From Thermoplasmata archaeon (GTDB taxonomy: Archaea; Thermoplasmatota; Thermoplasmata; Lutacidiplasmatales; UBA184), in the NCBI GenBank assembly GCA_035622275.1, contig DASPVQ010000004.1, forward strand, positions 1 through 37,680: DNA of 37,680 nucleotides. The letters are read 5' to 3'. A program made the position numbers and the translations under genes. The notes beneath the pieces are model-generated. The model ran no database searches and had not been told where the DNA came from. It saw nothing but the letters and a program-made list of their open reading frames with translations. Each line of letters opens with the position of its first letter. Positions within the stretch are counted from its first letter, which is position 1. Positions 30,819 to 37,102 of this stretch are shown here, piece after piece.

Positions 30819-31381
30819 GGGCCGCCTCCGGAGCCGACGTTCGCGAGCGTGATCGGGACGGGGAGGTCCGTGACGGGCGTCGAGAAGGCACCGATGCCGC
30901 TCGTGTCCGACGCGACGATCAGCGCGTCCGCGGACTGACCCGAGGGGACCCCGATCGTCACCGCGAGCAGCCCGACGTAGAGGACGCTCGCGCCGTTCGC
31001 GGTGTAGAGCGCCGAGACGTTCACCGCCGCCGGCAACTGATCGACGTTCGCGGTGATCGCGAGGACGTTCGTTCCGTTCGTCCAGTTCGTCCAGTTCAGC
31101 GGGCCCGAGGGCCAGCCCCCCGTCCAGGAAAAGCCGAAGGCGAAGCCGAGATGGATCTCGGCATAGCGCGTGGTCGTCCCGAGGCCGCGGACGTAGAAGT
31201 GGACCGTCGCGTTGCCCGGGAGGCCGTCGACGATCAGTTCGGCCTGGGAGAAGATCGTGCCGGCGCTGGGCTGGCCATAGGACGTCAGGAACGGCGTGAA
31301 GACGATCAACAGGCCCAGCAGCAGCGCGACGCCGACGAGCGGCGCGGGGAACCAGTCCGCGAAGGGTCCACCCGTCCTCAC
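30815..31381 (-). CDS. Membrane-anchored extracytoplasmic protein
   Basis: The 188-residue protein has one N-terminal hydrophobic helix (about residues 12-32) that acts as an anchor or uncleaved signal, then an outside domain with beta-like composition. Three overlapping glycosylation sites form the unusual run NWTNWTNGTN (96-105). Further N-x-S/T sites are at Asn57 and Asn121. No family is recognised. It overlaps ubiX and the next gene by GTGA, which makes it a firm member of this operon. A longer frame upstream of 31381 is a shadow of ubiX. Confidence 0.8.
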   Translation of the reverse strand: MRTGGPFADWFPAPLVGVALLLGLLIVFTPFLTSYGQPSAGTIFSQAELIVDGLPGNATVHFYVRGLGTTTRYAEIHLGFAFGFSWTGGWPSGPLNWTNWTNGTNVLAITANVDQLPAAVNVSALYTANGASVLYVGLLAVTIGVPSGQSADALIVASDTSGIGAFSTPVTDLPVPITLANVGSGGGP

Positions 31382-31953
31382 GGAGCCTCCGCGCGCCAGC
31401 CCCGGTAGAGGGCGTGGGGGACGCCGAGATGGTCGAGCACCTTGCCGGCGAGGTACGAGGTCTGGTCGTCCACGGACCGGGGGTGGAGGTAGTACGGCGG
31501 GGCGGCGATGAGGACGACGACCCCGAGCTCGCTCAGGGTGGTCAGGTGCCGCAGCAGGGTCGTCGGCAGCGGCGACTCGCGGGGAACGATGACGAGGCGA
31601 CGCCGCTCCTTCAGGTGCACGTGCGCCGCGCGGGCGAGCAGGCTGTCGCCGAGTCCGAGCGCGACCTGCGCGGCCGTGTTCGACGAGCACGGCACGATCG
31701 CCATCCCGCGCGTCAGGCGAGAGCCGCTCGCGATCGGCGCGCCGAGGTCGTCGTCCGCGTAGACGTGGGTGGCCCGGGCGGCGAGCGCGTCGGGGTCGAT
31801 CCCGCACTCCTCGCGCAGCACCTCGCGTCCCCCCTTGGAGACGACGAGGGCGACCGGCACCTTCGCGGCGTGGAGCGCCTCGAGCACCCTCACGGCGATC
31901 GGCGCGCCGCTGGCTCCCGAGACGCCGACGACGAACGGGGGATCTTCCGCCAC
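31378..31953 (-). CDS. ubiX: UbiX flavin prenyltransferase
   Basis: The 191-residue flavoprotein makes prenylated FMN, the cofactor of UbiD-like decarboxylases, from FMN and dimethylallyl phosphate. It has the family start GVSGASGAPIAVRVLEAL (residues 10-27), a VSKGGREVL stretch, the MAIVPCSSNTAAQVALGLGD block, RLVIVPRESPL and YYLHPRSVDD. The length is normal. In archaea UbiX also serves the decarboxylase of the modified mevalonate pathway, which fits its place between the ipk/fni genes and the divergent thiolase. The start is GTG. No UbiD homologue is in the window. It is the first gene of the operon with the anchored protein and guaA. Confidence 0.96.
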   Translation of the reverse strand: MAEDPPFVVGVSGASGAPIAVRVLEALHAAKVPVALVVSKGGREVLREECGIDPDALAARATHVYADDDLGAPIASGSRLTRGMAIVPCSSNTAAQVALGLGDSLLARAAHVHLKERRRLVIVPRESPLPTTLLRHLTTLSELGVVVLIAAPPYYLHPRSVDDQTSYLAGKVLDHLGVPHALYRGWRAEAP

Positions 31954-32016: not shown

Positions 32017-33177
32017 TTGGGACATCGGGCAGCGATCGTCGGCGCCGGCCACACGCGGTTCGGCGCGCTCGAGGACGGACCGCGGCGCCTACTGCGGACC
32101 GCGATCGATGCCGCGTTCGCGAGCGTCGAGCGCGGGGCCGACCGCGCCCTCGTCCACGAAGCGTTCCTGGCGACGATCGGCTTCGGCGGCTGGCAGCTCG
32201 GCAACGTCGCCGCCGTCCTCGGAGAGGAGGCGGGCCTCTCGGGCGTGCCGGCGAGCCGGATCGAGAACGCGTGCGCGTCCGGAGGGTTTGCCGCGCGCGC
32301 GGGCGTGCGGGCCGCGCAGGGCGAGCCCGGCCTGGTGCTGGTCGCGGGCCTGGAGAAGATGACCGACGTATCGAGCGCACGCCGTCGCTACTGGCTCGGG
32401 GTGAGCGGCGACACGGAGTGGGAGCGCGCGGCGGGGCTCACGTTCGCCGGCGTCTACGGTCTCATCGCGTCGCGGTACGTTGCCGACCATCCGCGCGCCG
32501 CCGACGCCCTGGTGGAGGTCGCGGTGAAGAACCACGCCAATGGTGCGCTCAACCCGAACGCCCACTTCCAGAAGGCCGTGACCGCGGAGGCGGTGCGTGC
32601 CGCCCCGCGGGTCGCCGAACCGCTCGGCCTCTACGACTGCTGTCCCGTGAGCGACGGCGCGGTCGCGCTCCTCCTGGCCGCTCCGGAGGAGGCCCGCTCC
32701 TTCACCGACTCGCCCGTTTACATCGACGGCGTCGGGGCGGGCACGGACGCTCTCGCCGTCCAGGAGCGGCCCGAGCTGACCCGCTTCGGCGCAACGCGCT
32801 GGGCGGTCGACGCCGCGCTGCGCCAGGCCCGCGTCGATCGCTCGGCCATCTCCTTCCTCGAGGTACACGACTGCTTCACGATCGCCGAGCTCCTCGCGCT
32901 CGAGGACCTCGGCTTCGCGGAGTCCGGCGAGGCCGCGGCGATGACGCTCGATGGCGCCACCGCGCGGGGGGGACGGTTGCCCGTGAACCCGGACGGCGGG
33001 CTGAAGGCCAAGGGCCACCCGATCGGCGCAAGCGGCGTCAGCCAGCTCTACGAGGGATTCCTGCAGCTCCGTGGCGCGGCCGGACGCCGGCAGGTGCCCG
33101 GGGCGGAGCGAGCGCTCGCCCACAACGTGGGCGGCGCCGGGGCGACCGCGACCGTCACCGTGCTGTCGGCCGGGTGA
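32017..33177 (+). CDS. Archaeal thiolase (acetyl-CoA C-acetyltransferase)
   Basis: The 386-residue protein is a thiolase of the archaeal SCP2-thiolase-like group that makes acetoacetyl-CoA for mevalonate synthesis. The N terminus (AAIVGAGHTRFG) and the catalytic blocks are present: Cys86 in ENACASGG, a His in EVHDCFTIAE, the NPDGGLKAKGHPIGASG block and NVGGAGATATVTVL. The TTG start gives the usual length; no ATG or GTG lies in frame close upstream, and the TATA box supports it. The next gene begins 4 nt later and carries the DUF35 OB-fold that normally bridges thiolase to HMG-CoA synthase. These genes form the MVA-entry complex in many archaea. Confidence 0.93.
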   Translation: MGHRAAIVGAGHTRFGALEDGPRRLLRTAIDAAFASVERGADRALVHEAFLATIGFGGWQLGNVAAVLGEEAGLSGVPASRIENACASGGFAARAGVRAAQGEPGLVLVAGLEKMTDVSSARRRYWLGVSGDTEWERAAGLTFAGVYGLIASRYVADHPRAADALVEVAVKNHANGALNPNAHFQKAVTAEAVRAAPRVAEPLGLYDCCPVSDGAVALLLAAPEEARSFTDSPVYIDGVGAGTDALAVQERPELTRFGATRWAVDAALRQARVDRSAISFLEVHDCFTIAELLALEDLGFAESGEAAAMTLDGATARGGRLPVNPDGGLKAKGHPIGASGVSQLYEGFLQLRGAAGRRQVPGAERALAHNVGGAGATATVTVLSAG

Positions 33178-33181
33178 TCGC

Positions 33182-34228
33182 ATGGTCGAGATCCGCGGGG
33201 CGGCCGCCTACGTTCCTCGATCCACCGACGGAGATCGGCGCGTCGGGGATCCGGACGAGGACGAGTTCACCATGCTCGCGACCGCGATCGAGCGGCTGGA
33301 GGACGGGATCGAGCCGCTCGGAGGCATCGGCCCGGTCGTGGTGGTCGGAACGATCGCCTTCGGCGCCGCGGACAACGTGGCGCGATTCCTCGGCTCGCCA
33401 TCGCCGATCGAGTGCGTCGGTCGGGGCCCGGAGGCCTTCTCGGCCGCGCTGGAGAAGCTCTCGTCCGGCGTCAGCGCCCACGAATCCGCGCTGCTCCTCG
33501 CCGTCGATCGGGACCCGGGCACGACCGGCGACCCTGGGGACCGCGGACTATCGCACGCGGCGATCGCGATCTGGCTGGGCGGAGGGGGCGCGAACCCCGT
33601 GGCGACCGACGCGTTCCGATCCGCGGCTCCGTCCTCCACGGGCCCCGCCTTCGCCTGGGCGGCATCGACCGCAGCCGCCCGGGTCCCCCGGTGGGGCGAC
33701 TGGCGATACGATGGGCGGGCCGGCACGCGCTCGCTTCCCGCGCCGGCGGCGTCCGCCCCCGGCGGAGCCACGGTCTCCCAGGGAGCCTACGTTCCCTGGC
33801 CGCGGTACCTCGAGGCCACGAACGCCCACTGGCGCCTGATCGCGGCGGAGTGCGGCGCGTGTGGTGCCCTGACCTTTCCACCTCGGGGTCGGTGCCGGGC
33901 CTGCGAGTCCACCGATCCGGGCCGGTCCGTTCGGCTCGCCCGTGACGGCGGTCGCGTGATCGCGTCGACCCGCATCGGAGCGGGCGGTCAGCCGACCGAG
34001 TTTGACGAACAGGTGACGGCCTACGGACCGTACAGCGTCGTCCTGGTGGAGTTCGCCGCGGGGGTCCGAGCCACGCTACCCGTCGCGCTCGGGTCCGGTG
34101 ACCCGCCGGCGATCGGCGGGACCGTCACCACCCGCCTGCGCCGGCGCTACCCGATCGACGGCGAGTGGCGATACGGTCGCAAGGCGCTCGTCCCCGACCC
34201 GCCGGCGCGAGGAACCGAAGGCAGCTGA
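33182..34228 (+). CDS. Truncated HMG-CoA synthase half fused to DUF35 OB-fold
   Basis: The 348-residue protein has two parts. Residues 1-140 match the first half of HMG-CoA synthase (IRGAAAYVPR, EDEFTMLATAIERL, VVVGTIAF, ADNVARFLGSP, AFSAALEKLSSG, ALLLAVDRD, SHAAIAIWLGG). The second half of that enzyme, with its His, is missing. The usual catalytic Cys position in an ungapped match holds Val79; Cys78 lies one residue away. Residues 200-345 are a DUF35 OB-fold with a zinc ribbon (Cys224, Cys227, Cys238, Cys241) and the VLVEFAAGVRATLPVALG core. In archaea DUF35 holds thiolase and HMG-CoA synthase together. Here the fusion may act as a scaffold, not an enzyme. It starts 4 nt after the thiolase stop, using the ATG at 33182. 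Confidence 0.8.
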   Translation: MVEIRGAAAYVPRSTDGDRRVGDPDEDEFTMLATAIERLEDGIEPLGGIGPVVVVGTIAFGAADNVARFLGSPSPIECVGRGPEAFSAALEKLSSGVSAHESALLLAVDRDPGTTGDPGDRGLSHAAIAIWLGGGGANPVATDAFRSAAPSSTGPAFAWAASTAAARVPRWGDWRYDGRAGTRSLPAPAASAPGGATVSQGAYVPWPRYLEATNAHWRLIAAECGACGALTFPPRGRCRACESTDPGRSVRLARDGGRVIASTRIGAGGQPTEFDEQVTAYGPYSVVLVEFAAGVRATLPVALGSGDPPAIGGTVTTRLRRRYPIDGEWRYGRKALVPDPPARGTEGS

Positions 34229-35325: not shown

Positions 35326-35338
35326 GGACAGAGTGGGT

Positions 35339-35375
35339 GGCCAGCCCAAGGCCGAGCCGAGTCGGAAGGCTGGCC
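35339..35375 (+). repeat. Inverted repeat in the Tes-like leader
   Basis: GGCCAGCC (35339-35346) and GGCTGGCC (35368-35375) are exact reverse complements with a 21-nt loop. It lies between the promoter and the GGAG at 35381-35384 that precedes the ATG by 8 nt. It could form an RNA hairpin or bind a regulator. Confidence 0.45.
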
Positions 35376-35392
35376 GATTGGGAGAACAGGAA

Positions 35393-37102
35393 ATGCCGGC
35401 GCGCGTGATGAAGGAGTTCCAGGCCCCCCGCGGCCTTCCGAGGAAGACGGCGTCCGTCTGTCCGGAGTGCATCAAGGTCATTCCCGCGATCGTCCGCGAG
35501 AAGGACGGCCGCGTCATCATGGAAAAGACGTGCCGGACGCACGGGTACTTCTGGGACATCATCTCGAACGACGTCGACTTCTACCTCCGGATGGAGGTGT
35601 ACGCCCACGACGGGGTCGGCTACGAGAACCCGTACTACGACAAGTTCCGCGGCTGCCCGACCACCTGCGGGATGTGCAGCCACCACAAGTCGCACACGGG
35701 CCTCGCCCTGCTCGATCTGACGAACCGCTGCAACCTGAAGTGCCCGGTCTGTTTCGCGAACGCGAACGCGGCCGGCTACGTCTACGAGCCGACGCGCGAA
35801 CAGATCCACTTCATGCTCAAGACCCTCCGGGAGCAGAAGCCGGTCGGCACGGTCGCCGTCCAGTTCTCGGGCGGGGAGCCGACGCTGAGCCCCCTCTTCC
35901 TCGACGCGGTCTCAATGGCCCGTGACCTCGGCTTCAAGCAGATCCAGGTCGCGACCAACGGGATCCGGGTGGCCAACGAGCCCGGCTTCGCTCAGGCGTG
36001 CCGGGAGTCGGGGCTGCACACTCTCTATCTCCAGTTCGATGGTCTCGACGACGAGATCTATCGCAAGGTGCGGGGGGTCCCGCTGCTGAAGGTCAAGCAG
36101 AAGGCGATCCAGGCCGCGCGGGAGACCCACTCCTCCGCGGCAGAGCTCGCGGCCGGCAAGCCGGACAAGCCGCTGAGCGTCGTGCTCGTGCCGACCCTCG
36201 TCGGCGGCTTCAACGAGAAGGAGATCTGGCCGACGGTCAAGTTCGCCATCGACAACATCGACGTGGTTCGGGGGGTCAACTTCCAGCCGGTCGCGCTCAC
36301 CGCCCGTATCCCCGACAAGGACCGCTTCCAGATGCGGTTCACCCAGTCGGACCTGGTCCGTATCCTCTGCACGGAGGGCCCGTTCGAGAAGTCGGACTTC
36401 TTCCCGGTCCCGTCGGTCGCCCCGATCTCGGAGCTCGTCTCGATCATCCACGGCGAGGAGAAGATGACCCTGACGACCCACCCCGGCTGCGGGTGCGCGA
36501 CGTTCGCCTTCGTGTCGAAGGACGGCTCGAAGATCACCGCTCTCCCGCGGTTCATGGACGTCGACGGATTCTTCGAGTCCGTCGAGGGCATGATCGAGAA
36601 GTACCGGGACGCGCGGTTCGCGCGGGTCCGCTCGGCCGTGGCCGGCGCGAAGCTGTTGCACGACGTGTCGAAGTTCTTCGACTTCGAGCGGGCCCCGGAG
36701 GGCCTCACGGAGAAGGACTGCGCGCGCCTGATCGCCGGGATCTTCACCGAGGGGAACAAGGAGGCGCTCGCCAAGTTCACCTGGAGGACGCTCTACATCG
36801 GCAACATGCACTTCCAGGACGCCTACGACTACGATATCCAGCGCCTGATGCGCTGCGACATCCACTACTCGGTGCCCGACGGGCGGATCATCCCGTTCTG
36901 CTCGTACAACTCCGGTCCGATCTACCGGACGGAGGTCGAGAAGAAGTTCTCGATCCCGATCCCGGACTGGCAGGCCGCGAAGACGGGCGCGGGGAAGACC
37001 CTCAAGACCATCGAGACGATGGGCGTCAACGGCGAGGTCATCGTGGACCCGGAGTACTACAAGGTCCGGGCCCTCAAGGGCGCGCCGGGGATGTCGAGCT
37101 AG
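35393..37102 (+). CDS. tes: Tetraether lipid synthase-like radical SAM protein
   Basis: The 569-residue protein matches the Tes/MJ0619 radical SAM family, which joins archaeol tails into membrane-spanning tetraether lipids; relatives methylate pterin cofactors in methanogens. The radical SAM cluster is Cys113, Cys117 and Cys120 in NRCNLKCPVCFANA, with GGEPT at 160-164. N-terminal Cys23/Cys26, Cys47 (TCRTHGYF) and Cys88/Cys92/Cys95 (GCPTTCGMCSHH) fit the extra metal sites of the family. Near the end lie HPGCGCATFAF and MRCDIHYSVPDG...FCSYNS. GGAG at 35381-35384 lies 8 nt before the ATG. It stands alone with its own promoter and leader hairpin. The tetraether role is probable; related lipid-alkyl or cofactor chemistry is the main alternative. 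Confidence 0.85.
   Translation: MPARVMKEFQAPRGLPRKTASVCPECIKVIPAIVREKDGRVIMEKTCRTHGYFWDIISNDVDFYLRMEVYAHDGVGYENPYYDKFRGCPTTCGMCSHHKSHTGLALLDLTNRCNLKCPVCFANANAAGYVYEPTREQIHFMLKTLREQKPVGTVAVQFSGGEPTLSPLFLDAVSMARDLGFKQIQVATNGIRVANEPGFAQACRESGLHTLYLQFDGLDDEIYRKVRGVPLLKVKQKAIQAARETHSSAAELAAGKPDKPLSVVLVPTLVGGFNEKEIWPTVKFAIDNIDVVRGVNFQPVALTARIPDKDRFQMRFTQSDLVRILCTEGPFEKSDFFPVPSVAPISELVSIIHGEEKMTLTTHPGCGCATFAFVSKDGSKITALPRFMDVDGFFESVEGMIEKYRDARFARVRSAVAGAKLLHDVSKFFDFERAPEGLTEKDCARLIAGIFTEGNKEALAKFTWRTLYIGNMHFQDAYDYDIQRLMRCDIHYSVPDGRIIPFCSYNSGPIYRTEVEKKFSIPIPDWQAAKTGAGKTLKTIETMGVNGEVIVDPEYYKVRALKGAPGMSS

Follow-up and report, generated by a model that had tools for sequence, protein, structure and literature searches.

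A half-length HMG-CoA synthase-like domain without catalytic residues, fused to DUF35 and encoded next to a thiolase in Lutacidiplasmatales archaea

The window analysed here, the whole 37,680-nt stretch of contig DASPVQ010000004.1 (GenBank assembly GCA_035622275.1), comes from a Lutacidiplasmatales archaeon, and the nearest relatives of the fusion gene that it carries were found in Candidatus Lutacidiplasmatales genomes. The features of the locus, with coordinates relative to the window, are as follows:

32017–33177, plus strand: SCP2-type/archaeal thiolase, partner of the fusion (Pfam/NCBIfam-type profiles; putative TTG start at 32017)
33182–34228, plus strand: fusion ORF of 348 aa, consisting of the N-half of a pseudo-HMG-CoA synthase (pseudo-HMGCS), a linker and DUF35 (ORF reading, profile, AlphaFold2 and Foldseek; orthologues in about 80 species)
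33182–33586, plus strand: half thiolase/HMGCS fold, residues 1–135, lacking catalytic residues (model, Foldseek, profile-profile comparison and dN/dS in relatives)
33254–33271, plus strand: DEDxxT motif, D25, E26, D27 and T30 (alignment of 54 fusions)
33587–33775, plus strand: variable linker, in which RWGDW (compare GPVxWxG of the long forms) may be left over from the lost second half
33776–34201, plus strand: DUF35 domain, residues 199–340, Cys4 zinc ribbon plus OB fold (Pfam, alignment and structure)

The fusion ORF starts with an ATG at 33182, 4 nt downstream of the thiolase stop, and its stop codon ends at 34228. Its position next to a thiolase, pointed out in a preliminary description of this DNA, is general, since a thiolase lay directly upstream in all 66 loci where both genes were readable, with a gap of -20 to +51 nt (mostly -4 to +7), and thiolase residues C87, H285, C287 and H335 (numbered from 32014) were conserved in 65/65. 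Synteny around the fusion, involving genes for a glutamine amidotransferase, a flavoprotein and the tetraether lipid synthase Tes, is conserved in about 34 loci; a search of this neighbourhood for a pathway clue yielded none. In the window, the UbiX/Pad-type flavoprotein gene (31378–31953, minus strand) is divergent from the thiolase gene, and its neighbourhood is likewise kept in about 34 loci, while Tes (35333–37102, plus strand) matched NF045702 with 574 bits (cut-off 450) and is syntenic across the order.

The C-terminal part of the fusion is a complete DUF35 domain, with a Cys4 zinc ribbon followed by an OB fold, in agreement with the preliminary description. Pfam zf-ChsH2 matched residues 218–245 with 29.8 bits (cut-off 23.2), the zinc-ribbon cysteines (C224, C227, C238 and C241) being invariant in 54 orthologues; the OB fold was weak by sequence and clear in the structure model, and Foldseek matched the domain to PhlB (E 7.5e-9) and to the DUF35 subunit of 6ESQ (E 1.4e-7). 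Residues 1–140, earlier assigned to the first half of HMGCS, matched no Pfam or NCBIfam model when searched alone, so the resemblance to HMGCS is remote. The assignment was borne out by three agreeing approaches: 1) profile-profile comparison with a set of HMGCS, PhlA and pseudo-HMGCS gave a probability of 92 (E 7e-7) for the N-part of the long orthologues and of 78 (E 2e-5) for that of the half form, with 20 column-shuffled long-form profiles as control all at E ≥ 0.23; 2) in the AlphaFold2 single-chain model (pLDDT 88.9, pTM 0.90) the elements of the N-half follow the order beta-alpha-beta-alpha-beta-alpha-beta-beta, as in the N-half of the thiolase fold; and 3) Foldseek hits of this half to its counterparts in HMGCS, including the one in 6ESQ, and in PhlA spanned about 167 columns, with E values from 9e-7 to 1e-5. 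Profile comparison with canonical HMGCS alone gave short or weak alignments that became clear only when pseudo-HMGCS and PhlA were added, and the direct sequence link between the N-part and HMGCS is weak. The DEDxxT motif is invariant in the 54 aligned fusions; since its D-E-D is common to active HMGCS and to the dead PhlA and pseudo-HMGCS (it is conserved in MucA as well), it looks structural.

In the fusion, R81 and I58 stand in place of the catalytic Cys and Glu of HMGCS, and its orthologues have other residues there; the catalytic His and Asn belong to the half that is missing. Read from its sequence, the fusion retains none of the HMGCS active-site residues. Catalytic rescue by C78, a single Cys close to the former active site, was considered and rejected, as it is found at that position in this species only. 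The statement in the preliminary description that the catalytic second half is absent holds as to the absence, but the Cys and Glu of the first half are gone too, so that catalytic residues are not confined to the missing half, and the loss of that half is graded among relatives. Compared with the HMGCS families TIGR00748 and NF003274, the fusion gave no profile match, contains only the N-half of a two-half fold and is deficient in all four catalytic residues; by these measures, it is not an HMG-CoA synthase.

Of the 82 fusion loci detected by scanning GTDB species genomes, 80 were retained. The fusion is a fixed architecture recurring in 66+ species; within the family, it is present in 49/56 genomes that are at least 85% complete, one genus of four genomes (g24) being without it. 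The source genome also contains a full-length, canonical HMGCS (521 bits) on contig C1, with a thiolase and a DUF35 of its own downstream, indicating that mevalonate synthesis is independent of the fusion. Five thiolase-DUF35 pairs (contigs C1, C4, C5, C6 and C24) and a sixth thiolase (C20) were observed in this 1.7-Mb genome, and reading of the frames revealed that only the DUF35 copy on C4 is fused to an HMGCS-like half. A KASIII/HMGCS-like gene found in a species of the genus (genome G033; L137:4309-5322), flanked by genes resembling an acyl-CoA ligase and a TetR regulator, was set aside as unrelated to the fusion system; genome G003 had a second HMGCS-like match, too.

An unfused counterpart, in the order thiolase, full-length pseudo-HMGCS and DUF35, was found in 19 genomes of Thermoplasmata families f5 and f25, the upstream thiolase not being seen in one of the 19 loci (L162). 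In all 19 pseudo-HMGCS proteins (L135:6341-7363 and 18 relatives, L145–L162) the catalytic residues are replaced, Cys113 by T/S, Glu81 by T, His235 by Q and Asn267 by D, and despite these losses the copies are 61–80% identical to that of L135. In a quick tree, the thiolases of these operons formed the sister group of the fusion-associated thiolases (SH-aLRT 99), separate from the mevalonate thiolases, and the DUF35 nearest to that of the fusion outside the order was that of the unfused operon (E 3e-20). These comparisons suggest that a three-gene operon of this type is the likely ancestor of the fusion. As all four catalytic residues are lost in the unfused relatives, with sister thiolases and the nearest DUF35, the synthase was probably already dead before it was fused.

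The loci L135, L136 and L174–L185 share a conserved cluster of thiolase, pseudo-HMGCS, DUF35, CoA-transferase A and B, and class-III aminotransferase genes, with a lysine 2,3-aminomutase gene next to it in most loci (Pfam). Because such genes surround the unfused operon, it is suggested that the operon functions in cleavage of a 3-oxoacyl-CoA derived from beta-lysine, as part of a possible beta-lysine degradation route. Lysine aminomutase and CoA-transferase domains were both sought in the genome carrying the fusion and neither was found. A role of the fusion complex in lysine catabolism was therefore rejected for the source genome, and the fused form probably acts on a substrate other than that of the unfused operon.

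Among the fusions, long N-parts have 263–296 aa before DUF35 (21 species) and short ones 166–232 aa (47 species), the latter comprising half forms of 166–218 aa and intermediates of 232 aa, so that the sizes form a series from the separate protein of about 340 aa through the long fused and intermediate forms to the half. One of the long forms could be aligned with HMGCS almost from end to end (340 columns). A second-half model scored 72–170 bits in the long forms, which were its training set, and mostly below 8 bits in the short ones, with L061 and L076 intermediate; loss of the second half is thus graded across species, not all-or-nothing. In the quick thiolase tree the short state requires three changes, and shortening may thus have occurred more than once. 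For six close pairs of relatives, a simple counting method gave dN/dS values of 0.13–0.35 for the folded N-part, the linker lying mostly at 0.35–0.85. For the whole N-part the values were 0.12–0.47, compared with 0.09–0.25 for DUF35 of matching pairs. Constraint is strongest on DUF35, followed by the folded N-part, and least on the linker.

Known assemblies of these families offer three kinds of comparison: the PhlABC multicomponent acyltransferase (PDB 5M3K, 5MG5 and 9SKH), with PhlA as a dead HMGCS-like subunit, PhlB as DUF35 and PhlC as thiolase; the archaeal acetoacetyl-CoA thiolase/HMGCS/DUF35 complex (PDB 6ESQ and 6ET9); and the two-component thiolase-DUF35 enzymes BbsAB (7PXP), Ltp2-ChsH2 (6OK1) and Sal-Shy (9MYR). 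The last group resembles the present system in that an SCP2-type thiolase is paired directly with DUF35, but has no HMGCS-like part. The archaeal complex contains the same three families with the same operon logic, and its subunits were matched by the DUF35 and the N-half of the fusion; its HMGCS is active, however, and the source genome keeps a separate canonical set. The likeness to PhlABC goes further, since both have a thiolase with intact catalytic residues, a DUF35 and an HMGCS-like partner without the catalytic Cys and Glu; PhlB was among the best structural matches of the fusion's DUF35, and the unfused pseudo-HMGCS shares with PhlA the changes of His to Gln and Asn to Asp. In PhlABC the key Cys and Glu are absent from PhlA and only PhlC catalyses, yet all three subunits are required (PMC6392133).

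By analogy, the half-domain most likely works as PhlA does, as a non-catalytic scaffold and cavity wall. The fusion has the HMGCS-related fold without Cys and Glu and is encoded with a thiolase (66/66) and DUF35, whereas PhlA is full length and separate, a state seen only in the unfused relatives; being fused and halved, the fusion is not a plain PhlA-type member. Polyphenol acylation as in PhlABC found no support for the fusion. PhlA and MucA grouped with pseudo-HMGCS in the tree (98/97), on long branches, and the fusion/pseudo-HMGCS and PhlA may share descent. Fusions of DUF35 to other domains, including members of the thiolase superfamily, were noted for SSO2064 homologues (PMC2954200); these are similar in the joining of the two families, but neither a half-fold nor a pseudo-HMGCS was described there. 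Searches confined to the open-access literature turned up no account of a fusion between pseudo-HMGCS and DUF35 or of its halved form. The suggestion that such a pseudoenzyme would be new as a fixed architecture is thus right as to its fixation across species but too broad as to novelty: PhlA is already a dead HMGCS-like subunit (PMC6392133), and what appears to be new here is the fused, halved form.

For the fusion, the data directly support its homology and fold, the absence of catalytic residues, its linkage to the thiolase gene, the kinship of the thiolases and constraint. With these and the PhlABC analogy in mind, we consider it probable that the fusion serves as a non-catalytic partner of the thiolase in a complex of two proteins, with its N-half in the place of HMGCS or PhlA, and that it arose by fusion of operon genes. 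The DUF35 part would bind the adjacent, catalytically intact thiolase, and the pseudo-HMGCS half would stand where HMGCS stands in the archaeal mevalonate complex or PhlA in PhlABC, lining the shared acyl-CoA cavity. HMGCS-family proteins pair through strands of the N-half, a dimer contact typical of the superfamily, and the N-half probably aids oligomerisation, perhaps by such a contact. HMG-CoA would not be made by the fusion. Genes two and three of the thiolase/pseudo-HMGCS/DUF35 operon would have been fused in Lutacidiplasmatales, after which the tethered, dead synthase would have shed most of its second half stepwise. More tentatively, and with slightly less than even confidence, we propose that the half thiolase fold has come to stand by itself as a domain under selection, a dead synthase having been cut down after fusion, step by step, to the part that shapes the cavity or oligomer of its partner thiolase, with graded intermediates in living species.

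The weaker constraint on the N-part than on DUF35 and its variable length, as a drifting remnant might show, count against the scaffold reading. So do the weak direct sequence link to HMGCS and the failure to find lysine aminomutase or CoA-transferase in this genome, where the substrate route proposed for the unfused operon therefore cannot operate. If DUF35 alone served the thiolase, the N-half would be a passive, eroding leftover of the fused pseudo-HMGCS, which would fit the repeated loss of the second half (three changes of the half label on the thiolase tree), the variable length and the higher dN/dS of the N-part; we nevertheless regard this as unlikely, as the folded part is under purifying selection (0.13–0.35), DEDxxT is invariant in 54 sequences, the fold is modelled confidently and no complete fusion-linked gene was seen without the N-half altogether. 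That the N-half instead became a new catalytic or regulatory domain using other residues, for example the DED motif, could explain the same invariance, but D-E-D also occurs in active HMGCS, dead PhlA and pseudo-HMGCS, and the N-half supplies just one half of an ordinary active-site cleft, making this idea highly improbable. The source genome is a draft assembly in 29 contigs, in which a frameshift, a truncated gene or another assembly or annotation artefact could be suspected; recurrence of the identical architecture in 66+ species, with the thiolase directly upstream, excludes an assembly artefact, and we give this explanation next to no credence.

The preliminary description had offered two functions, recruitment of a separate synthase and occupation of its site on the thiolase. 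A docking adaptor bringing a full-length HMGCS to the fusion's thiolase would be in keeping with the N-half strand pairing of the HMGCS family and with the presence of a full HMGCS in the genome, but we think it quite improbable, as a thiolase and a DUF35 of its own already lie beside that HMGCS and the unfused-operon relatives replace HMGCS rather than join it. Occupation of the synthase site appears to be the best reading, because the unfused relatives hold the HMGCS position in the operon with four catalytic residues lost and with sister thiolases.

Dead subunits of the PhlA kind have been described before, but the reason for their retention is not known. Living species display the whole course, from active HMGCS through a full-length dead paralogue and a fused dead paralogue to a half, probably the reduction of an enzyme to a structural component; what has survived would indicate which portion the complex requires, which makes the question of retention testable by deletion. 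The full-length dead paralogue also presents a hazard for annotation, as the L135 pseudo-HMGCS, without any of the four catalytic residues, scores 275 bits against NF003274, above the 244-bit cut-off that NCBI sets for this HMG-CoA synthase equivalog, and proteins of this type are likely to be misannotated as HMG-CoA synthase.
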